A stretch of 11,707 nucleotides of DNA from an uncultured Elusimicrobium sp. Lineage in GTDB: Bacteria; Elusimicrobiota; Elusimicrobia; Elusimicrobiales; Elusimicrobiaceae. Below the pieces are notes generated by a model, which worked only from the letters and a program-made list of their open reading frames with translations, did no database searches and was not told the DNA's origin. Within the stretch, counting starts at the first letter, position 1, and the number at the start of each line of letters is the position of its first letter. Below are positions 240-10,481 of this stretch, one piece after another. The position numbers were made by a program, and so were the translations under genes. The DNA lies in NCBI GenBank assembly GCA_946061795.1, contig CAMGSK010000032.1, forward strand, positions 1-11,707, given 5' to 3'.

Positions 240-267
240 AAAAACGCCCCGGGCGGCAACCCGGGGC
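240..267 (-). terminator. Rho-independent terminator of the first pilin gene
   Basis: GCCCCGGG (246-253) and CCCGGGGC (260-267) form a perfect 8-bp GC stem with a 6-nt loop. On the minus strand it is followed by a run of five T (240-244). It lies about 20 bp after the pilin stop and so insulates dnaJ from the pilin transcript. Confidence 0.85.
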
Positions 268-286
268 TGATTGCATCAAAAGAGGA

Positions 287-835
287 CTATGGCAAATCAT
301 AAATATGCATGCCGGGAGTATTGTTCACAAGTTTTCCTCCTAGAGATAAACACACTTTATCCCACCTTTCATTTCCGGCATAACACTTAGCCGGGATATT
401 TTGCCGAAAATGGCGCAAATAATTTGCATAATTATATGAACCGCCCGGACGTCCGTTCAGGCGGAAACTTACATAAGAGCCGTAGCCATAGTCTGAACGA
501 ATACCATATTCTCCCCAATCAGCCACCCATCTATCATTCCCGCTGGTTTCTCCCGGAGAGTTTGCATGTTGCAGCCCGGCAGGAATACCAATATCCAAAT
601 CTTCAAACCGCATTGCATACGTTCCGTTAGCTAAATAATACAGCTGTTGGGCTTGCCAAACAGAATCCACAAACTGCATTTTTGACACATACCGGCTTTT
701 ATCCACCGCCAATTGGTACTTTGGAAACGCGACAGCCGCCAGGATACCGATGATTAACACCACCACTAACAGCTCTATCAGAGTAAATCCGGCGTTTTTT
801 AAGCCGGAGAGAGATTTTTGATAAATTTTGTTCAT
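287..835 (-). CDS. Type IV pilin-like protein (PilE/PulG family), copy 1
   Basis: Major- or minor-pilin-like prepilin, expected to be cut by prepilin peptidase and assembled into a type IV pilus or pseudopilus. The 182-residue product has a short basic leader, the cleavage site NAG|FTLIE (after G16) with the essential Glu at mature position 5 (E21), and a hydrophobic N-terminal helix up to about residue 38. Further on are ANGTY and a DLDIGIPAG segment (residues 69-87), then a C-terminal cysteine pair C151/C162 followed by LSLGG, likely a disulfide-closed D-region. The ATG at 835 is chosen; an in-frame TTG two codons upstream lies where the transcript probably starts. No Shine-Dalgarno is present. 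No assembly ATPase, platform or peptidase genes are nearby, so it is an orphan pilin gene. It sits between dnaK and dnaJ and has a close paralogue at 9922-10446. Confidence 0.9.
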   Translation of the reverse strand: MNKIYQKSLSGLKNAGFTLIELLVVVLIIGILAAVAFPKYQLAVDKSRYVSKMQFVDSVWQAQQLYYLANGTYAMRFEDLDIGIPAGLQHANSPGETSGNDRWVADWGEYGIRSDYGYGSYVSFRLNGRPGGSYNYANYLRHFRQNIPAKCYAGNERWDKVCLSLGGKLVNNTPGMHIYDLP

Positions 836-870
836 ATGCAAAATTTATCAAAAAAAAAAAACAATGCAAG
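815..870. repeat. 56-bp promoter/start module, copy 1 (identical to 10426-10481)
   Basis: This block is identical base for base to 10426-10481. It covers the putative -35, a 12-T tract, the -10, the start codon and codons 2 to 7 of the pilin gene. Identity stops abruptly on both sides: at codon 8 inside the gene (TCT against CCC) and one base beyond the CTTGCAT motif upstream. It contains a 16-bp perfect inverted repeat with arms 815-830 and 839-854, and the ATG in the 8-bp centre. Confidence 0.95.
842..869 (-). promoter_or_regulatory. Putative promoter of pilin copy 1 with T12 spacer
   Basis: On the minus strand, TTGCAT (864-869) could serve as a weak -35 and TGA-TAAATT (842-850) as an extended -10, with a 16-bp spacer that is mostly twelve consecutive T (850-861). 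The -10 ends 6 nt before the ATG, so the transcript would be leaderless or nearly so. The element is identical before the second pilin gene. Assignment is by inspection only. Confidence 0.55.
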
Positions 871-9931: not shown

Positions 9932-10446
9932 TAATAGGCGTACGTTCCGTTGTCGGTTTCCTGCGTTCCTCCGTAAGAAAGGCACAGCCGGTTTCCGAAT
10001 GCGTCGCCTGAGCGGGCAATACAAATATGCCGCTTTGTTTTGACGGGAAAATCCAAATGATAACCGTAGTGAATCCCTTGGGCGATACAATAAGAATAAT
10101 ATCCATCAGACTTAGGTTGTATTGAAAAATCAGGATAGTTGGCCTGCTCGGACCAAGTCCCATTCGGAGCGGAAATGCTGCGATAACCGGAGGGAATTTC
10201 CACATCTAAATCGGCAAAATGCAACGTATATTCTCCGTTGGCCATACGGTAGCGTTCCTGTGCGGCGGCCAAACTGCGCGCCAACGCCATGCACTTGGAC
10301 ACTTTCGCTTTAGCCACCGCCATGCGGTACTGCGGCAGGGCAACGGCCGACAGAATACCGATAATTAAAACGACAACAAGCAGCTCTATCAGCGTAAATC
10401 CGGCGTTTTTCTCGCCGGGGAAGGGTTTTTGATAAATTTTGTTCAT
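9922..10446 (-). CDS. Type IV pilin-like protein (PilE/PulG family), copy 2
   Basis: Paralogue of the pilin at 287-835; 174 residues. Same leader MNKIYQK, cleavage site NAG|FTLIE with E21 as mature Glu5, and near-identical N-terminal helix. The common middle motif ANGEY...DLDVEIPSG (69-87) is followed by a divergent central region. The C-terminal Cys pair C142/C155 is followed by LSYGG, with two extra Cys (C52, C120). The tail is Tyr-rich and ends YYYW. The ATG at 10446 is chosen; an in-frame TTG at 10452 adjoins the -10. There is no Shine-Dalgarno. No assembly genes are near. The 3' end overlaps the TIGR02757 gene by 10 bp tail to tail, and I find no clear terminator, only a T6 run in that neighbour's sequence. 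Confidence 0.9.
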   Translation of the reverse strand: MNKIYQKPFPGEKNAGFTLIELLVVVLIIGILSAVALPQYRMAVAKAKVSKCMALARSLAAAQERYRMANGEYTLHFADLDVEIPSGYRSISAPNGTWSEQANYPDFSIQPKSDGYYSYCIAQGIHYGYHLDFPVKTKRHICIARSGDAFGNRLCLSYGGTQETDNGTYAYYYW

Positions 10447-10481
10447 ATGCAAAATTTATCAAAAAAAAAAAACAATGCAAG
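10426..10481. repeat. 56-bp promoter/start module, copy 2 (identical to 815-870)
   Basis: Perfect copy of the block at 815-870. It includes the same 12-base homopolymer (10461-10472) and the same 16-bp inverted repeat (arms 10426-10441 and 10450-10465) with the start codon in the centre. It begins 22 bp after the pentapeptide-repeat gene ends; identity is lost on both sides immediately. Confidence 0.95.
10453..10480 (-). promoter_or_regulatory. Putative promoter of pilin copy 2 with T12 spacer
   Basis: Same elements as for copy 1: TTGCAT (10475-10480), a 16-bp spacer carrying T12, and TGA-TAAATT (10453-10461) ending 6 nt before the ATG. The pilin therefore need not depend on read-through from the upstream tilS unit. 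Confidence 0.55.

Follow-up and report, generated by a model that had tools for sequence, protein, structure and literature searches.

Two pilin genes in the window, by which we mean the whole 11,707-nt stretch of DNA from an uncultured Elusimicrobium analyzed here, share the same 56 base pairs around their start codons, and the question that this locus raises is what keeps these letters identical. The first-pass annotation of this DNA had reported the two stretches as identical including a 12-base homopolymer, and direct comparison bears this out: both minus-strand copies agree over all 56 nt, and the two loci are 84% alike across the surrounding 173 nt. The block is composed of CTTGCATTG, a T12 run, the 30-mer GATAAATTTTGCATATGAACAAAATTTATC and AAAAA (Table 1). 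What that annotation overlooked is that the core forms a perfect inverted repeat around the start codon, and that the 12-base run occupies the position of a promoter spacer. Both genes pass the cut-off for the N-terminal methylation motif PF07963 (32.7 and 32.9 bits; cut-off 21.2). An intrinsic terminator at the block could be discarded, since on the sense strand the T-run comes before the stem, and a scan for terminators and promoters over 600-1100 found no terminator; the likely terminator of pilin 1 lies outside the scanned range. The second pilin also matches the DNA-uptake pilin ComP_DUS, though below threshold (22.2 bits; cut-off 27.3).

Table 1. Features of the two pilin loci, in window coordinates
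Feature	Position	Strand	Remark
Module copy 1, 56-bp block	815..870	-	identical to copy 2
Putative -35 region CTTGCATTG, hexamer TTGCAT	862..870	-	assigned by position and alignment, not by consensus scan
T12 spacer tract, copy 1	850..861	-	
Putative -10 box TAAATT (TAnnnT), within left dyad arm	842..847	-	last T kept in 160/164 sites
30-bp dyad GATAAATTTTG-CATATGAA-CAAAATTTATC, proposed operator	820..849	-	centered on predicted start site
Start codon ATG, its A (835) the predicted +1	833..835	-	from ATG geometry in pilin sites
Pilin gene 1, 182 aa	287..835	-	N_methyl PF07963, E 4.7e-8
Likely terminator after pilin 1	246..267	-	GC-rich inverted repeat, then T-run; read from sequence
Module copy 2, 56-bp block	10426..10481	-	
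Dyad of copy 2	10431..10460	-	
T12 spacer, copy 2	10461..10472	-	
Pilin gene 2, 174 aa	9922..10446	-	N_methyl PF07963, E 4e-8

The two copies of the window belong to a much larger set. In the host genome (1.30 Mb, 159 contigs, 85.6% complete) the 30-bp core occurs at 37 places at up to 3 mismatches, 8 of them exact, while the reversed pattern of the 30-mer, used as a control at the same threshold, gave 0 places there, so that the matches are not due to chance; with a free 10-nt center the dyad pattern matches 38 places. These 37 places rule out that the block occurs in only two copies as the trace of a recent duplication. The expectation that every copy precedes a pilin gene held for 32 of the 37 cores, which are followed by an N-methyl pilin match within 200 nt on the same strand. 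Of the remaining five, C60, C96 and C125 are truncated by contig ends, C6 appears degenerate, and C116 enters a non-pilin-like frame before its contig ends. The proposal of a family-wide module stands in part only: among the 75 PF07963 matches of the host genome, 46 have a run of at least nine T plus GATA within 300 nt upstream and 32 have the dyad as judged by pattern, some of the remainder being cut by contig ends. The promoter is moreover not confined to pilins in a sister genus, where another secreted family has it too. The T10GATA motif is found at 53 sites in the host genome, at least 2 of which serve non-pilin genes. One such site (L269, on C71) precedes a secreted-looking protein without a Pfam match, and at the other, L285 (G000:C93), the gene behind the T-run promoter encodes a papain-like peptidase (DUF1796) and has its ATG at +14. 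A pilin promoter at G000:C58:4626 has a T-run of only 7, and a TATAAT further downstream would restore an 18-bp spacer.

The pattern of conservation can be read from 28 of the 37 copies, the other 9 being skipped since they are cut by a contig end or have no recognizable helix. The dyad arms average 99.6% pairwise identity and codons 2-7 average 98.8%, and codons 4-7 consist of the same triplets in all 28 copies. The first-pass annotation had noticed in two genes that the helix codons differ synonymously and that the block is better conserved than this constrained helix. Both observations extend to the larger set, where third positions agree to 96.5% in codons 2-7 versus 68.5% in the 17 helix codons, despite a helix protein sequence that is 97.5% alike. 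The wide divergence of the rest of the proteins was also confirmed, with a median identity of 31% among 27 pilin bodies. Upstream, identity falls to 66% in the 9 nt before the T-run and to 28% in the 21 nt farther out. Constraint at the protein level does not account for codons 2-7, where synonymous positions are nearly fixed and where the corresponding dyad arm persists in copies that carry it outside coding DNA. Selection on the DNA itself is supported by the recurrence of the block before tens of pilins with diverged bodies and flanks. Among the options named for such selection, the combination of promoter and operator fits best; gene conversion confined to the block is conceivable but need not be invoked, because the block edges match promoter and dyad elements and because other species have the same promoter with other dyads or none.

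What kind of element is the block? We collected 164 distinct sites by a T-run of at least 9 plus GATA, about 50 from the host genome and 114 from relatives; the GATA is hence fixed by search design. T-run length ranges from 9 to 15 with a mode of 12 (n = 113). An upstream TTG is present in 157 of the 164 sites (TTGAC in 84, TTGCAT in 19), and its spacer to TAnnnT measures 16 bp in 107 of these 157 and 15-18 bp in 140, the range of sigma70-type boxes. The T11 copies of G011 have one extra base, so that the spacer stays at 16. The last T of the -10 box is kept in 160/164 sites and the three preceding bases vary. From their sequence, the TTG, the T12 run and the TAnnnT with its 16-bp spacer look like a sigma70 promoter. 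A consensus scan that needed 9 of 12 positions did not call the window promoter, which is no close match to the full consensus; its -35 hexamer TTGCAT is poor, whereas many other copies have TTGAC. A pilin lies downstream of 149 of the 157 sites with enough sequence, and in 87 of these 149 the first ATG stands 14 nt after the G of GATA. ATG at this distance places the predicted +1 on the A of the ATG itself. There is no Shine-Dalgarno sequence, and the T-run and AT-rich DNA precede the start codon. Judged by promoter geometry, the pilin mRNA is thus probably leaderless. The same +14 ATG is seen at L121, L151 and L185 though they have no good dyad, and other pilins have the same promoter followed by a Shine-Dalgarno leader. 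T tracts between -35 and -10 alter promoter activity according to work cited in PMC8553145. The pilin block resembles this known case in the T tract of its spacer; the effect described there is a general physical one, with neither a family-wide module nor an operator, unlike the pilin block.

The 30-mer is a perfect dyad of the form GATAAATTTTG-N8-CAAAATTTATC, with 11-bp arms and an 8-nt center that holds the pilin ATG; the arms lengthen to 16 bp if the flanking T5 and A5 are counted. The right arm falls in codons 2-7, which encode the prepilin leader. In several copies the dyad lies upstream with the ATG outside it (C29:8204 and C5:13789 in the host genome; L192, L245, L271, L275 and L309), and the right arm is therefore kept even where it is non-coding. 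The arms are mostly fixed across copies, and co-variation was analyzed in 82 distinct central-ATG cores, of which 56 were preselected by similarity (up to 3 mismatches) and the rest taken from loci. Pair 5-26 is A-T in 67, C-G in 3, G-C in 1 and unpaired in 11. At pair 12-19, to either side of the start codon, 21 cores have C-G, 18 T-A, 3 G-C and 1 A-T, and 39 are unpaired; here the second base of codon 2 changes in step with a non-coding base, and the amino acid is altered. For both pairs the observed count was reached by 0 of 5000 shuffles, which ignore relatedness. Counts were reached by 10 of 5000 shuffles for pair 10-21, by 60 for 11-20, by 219 for 13-18 and by 379 for 6-25, and pair 9-22 gave no co-variation signal in this test of the 82 cores. 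The leader-bearing copies showed no excess of pairing at fixed geometry (3.26 versus 3.03 in shuffles, shuffle maximum 3.53); with a flexible loop, stems of at least 7 bp are found in 11 of 73, whereas 500 swaps average 3.8 and never exceed 9. Dyad symmetry thus appears to be under selection in the central-ATG cores, and weakly or not at all over the leader-bearing copies at fixed geometry.

The best explanation in our view, which we favor with modest confidence, is that the block is a compact promoter-operator module of a large class of dispersed pilin genes. The TTG and TAnnnT, set 16 bp apart by the T12 spacer, would form a promoter of the sigma70 type, and transcription would begin at or beside the A of the ATG to give a leaderless message. 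The 30-bp dyad centered on this start may be a DNA operator for a dimeric regulator, a protein that we infer from the symmetry of the site. Its left half would overlap the -10 box, and its right half would be hidden in codons 2-7, which code only for the leader that is removed at maturation. A single regulator could then jointly switch tens of pilin paralogues while their bodies diverge, and slippage of the T-run may additionally vary the promoter spacing of single copies. Operators that overlap the -10/+1 region of leaderless genes are a known kind, and they share with the pilin block a dyad across the start site whose right half lies in coding DNA. The pilin block differs from them in being repeated before tens of diverged paralogues, within a sacrificial leader peptide. 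If this reading is right, a module of roughly 50 bp, overlapping the start codon and concealed in a later-cleaved peptide, could allow a small gut bacterium to regulate tens of pilin paralogues.

Could the dyad act as RNA instead, a hairpin with the start codon in its loop that controls translation? The arms co-vary, as this reading would have it, and a 91-nt stretch folded as RNA gives a 16-bp stem of -21 kcal/mol (z -2.85; 3 of 200 shuffles equally good). However, the predicted transcript begins in the loop and leaves the left arm untranscribed, and in the leader-bearing copies the dyad stands ahead of the Shine-Dalgarno sequence and does not cover the ATG. We regard the hairpin as unlikely. 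A DNA operator is likelier, because the predicted start falls in the loop with the left arm outside the normal transcript, and because the dyad survives with the start codon outside it while its arms co-vary. A functionless block whose identity is maintained by recent duplication or gene conversion is highly improbable: codon 2 has species-typical variants (AAC in the host, often AGC in G015), as expected under such a process, yet identity beyond the block is absent, with flanks only 28% and bodies 31% alike, and the promoter geometry is common to several species and the sister genus. The block might also be a recombination or insertion site that spreads pilin cassettes. In its favor, pilin units are missing or different-bodied in the same dnaK-dnaJ gap of the seven close relatives with a recognizable dnaJ, and the orientation of the units relative to replication is strict. 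In three of these relatives (G010, G019 and G001) the gap measures 173-248 nt and no pilin unit was found in it. G000 and G015 have T-run pilins with different bodies between dnaK and dnaJ; G008 and G049 have another gene there, presumably YdeI-like, of which the window retains a remnant. The pilins thus arrive as complete units, each with its promoter, gene and terminator. The block, though, is internal to such a unit, and the sister genus has the T-run promoter without the dyad, so that a recombination site is distinctly unlikely. Spread by phage found no backing in viral_contigs, where two patterns gave 0 exact matches. The remnant in the window is short (920-1060) and matches the end of the gene that is intact in G008 and G049. 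In the dnaK-dnaJ region of the other 23 relatives, several have pilins without a T-run, in either orientation (L378, L381, L382, L391, L393 and L397).

A different role for the T12 tract is tentatively conceivable and compatible with the dyad as an operator, namely phase variation, in which slippage between -35 and -10 would switch the promoter of each paralogue by its spacing. A homopolymer is kept exactly in the spacer, where a contingency locus could have it, and its lengths spread from 9 to 15 around the mode. In 294 kb of the relative G062, T-runs of at least 10 occur only at pilin T-run promoters (3/3). L264 and L265 have the same letters after the tract but T10 versus T12, and the orthologue-like pair L094/L123 has T16 versus T12 at 97% upstream and 93% downstream identity; tract length was seen to vary between copies and between species, the comparisons covering these rather than one strain. 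Also in line with phase variation is the sister genus, in which this promoter serves two surface families, both multi-copy and variable. On the other hand, the sharp mode at T12 with spacer 16 and the compensated T11 copies are as expected of a fixed optimum, and of the five closest pairs compared four have equal tracts (12/12). A precedent is sabA of H. pylori, where a poly-T tract of 13-19 T slips in the promoter of a surface adhesin (PMC2715451). The likeness is a homopolymeric T tract in a surface-protein promoter; unlike the pilin block, sabA is one gene with slippage shown, and is not known to have a start-codon dyad or a genome-wide family.

A new observation is the strict leading-strand orientation of the T-run pilin promoters in G062. 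The two contigs of this genome carry 60 T10GATA sites, all of which (60/60) have a PF07963 match 17-131 nt downstream on the same strand. GC skew switches sign near 220 kb of C1, where it becomes positive, and is about zero around 55-130 kb of C2. On C1 the 6 sites left of the switch are on the minus strand and the 22 right of it on the plus strand; the 32 sites of C2 all lie beyond 180 kb and are minus. Hence 60/60 promoters are on the leading strand, versus 250 of 421 ORFs of at least 150 aa in 36 sampled stretches (534 kb; Fisher p = 4e-13). A smaller sample gave 136/226 ORFs by contig arm and 138/226 by local skew. The other G062 pilins are on the leading strand in 38 of 46 cases (p = 9e-4), and T-runs of at least 7 without GATA show no orientation bias (98 versus 125). 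Among the matches listed for 13 genomes of the genus, adjacent sites are co-oriented in 166 of 172 cases, as are 46/48 in four sister-genus genomes, and in the host genome G exceeds C on the site's own strand around 40 of the 42 sites that have sufficient flank. Candidate causes are avoidance of head-on collisions at strong promoters, strand-dependent slippage and the mode of spread. Such a strict rule, in a genome where only 59% of sampled ORFs are co-oriented, is a clean natural test of replication-transcription conflict or strand-dependent slippage. More speculatively, and we think this rather doubtful, each copy might combine a T12 slippage switch with a start-codon operator in a lineage-wide contingency system, pinned to the leading strand since replication direction would set slippage, with pilins and the Cys-rich proteins of the sister genus sharing the switch.

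As a module, the 56-bp block belongs to a genus of gut Elusimicrobiales, namely Cand. Avelusimicrobium and its kin. Exact full dyads were found in at least 102 stretches of genome_contigs, and the 80 dyad stretches among the matches listed carry the names Elusimicrobiales, Cand. Avelusimicrobium or "uncultured bacterium". With up to 3 mismatches allowed, the dyad is present in 12 of 25 genomes of the genus and missing from 13, and it was found in 0 of 16 genomes of another family of the order. T10GATA is more widespread, in 49 of 61 genus genomes with 0-103 sites each; across the phylum (149 genomes) it reaches high numbers only in some members of the genus and of the sister genus g11, with 0-2 elsewhere. 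From the 97 sites in four g11 genomes we opened 30 loci, of which 10 lead to pilins (9 in G079, 1 in G083), the remainder mostly to a multi-copy, Cys-rich protein family with a signal peptide (G083, G086 and G116); inspection by eye revealed no dyad at these 30 loci. The T-run promoter signature thus also detects variable surface-protein families in uncultured Elusimicrobiales. Our literature search found no description of the dyad/T-run pilin module. Elusimicrobium minutum reportedly has an expansion of pilin paralogues, a likeness in that many dispersed pilin genes occur in the phylum, and we know of no shared promoter or dyad described for them. The Cys-rich proteins (L400-L429) have a signal peptide followed by ..ESCSS.G..QYK....C....RTCC...WS.W.., and their genes follow the T-run promoter with a leader of about 80-110 nt. 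In the pilin genes of the window, a second inverted repeat, this one GC-rich (CCGGC..GCCGG; 784-806 and 10395-10417) lies in the codons directly before GFTLIE, and it is present in most of the 28 aligned copies, in many of them as CCGGCG..CGCCGG.
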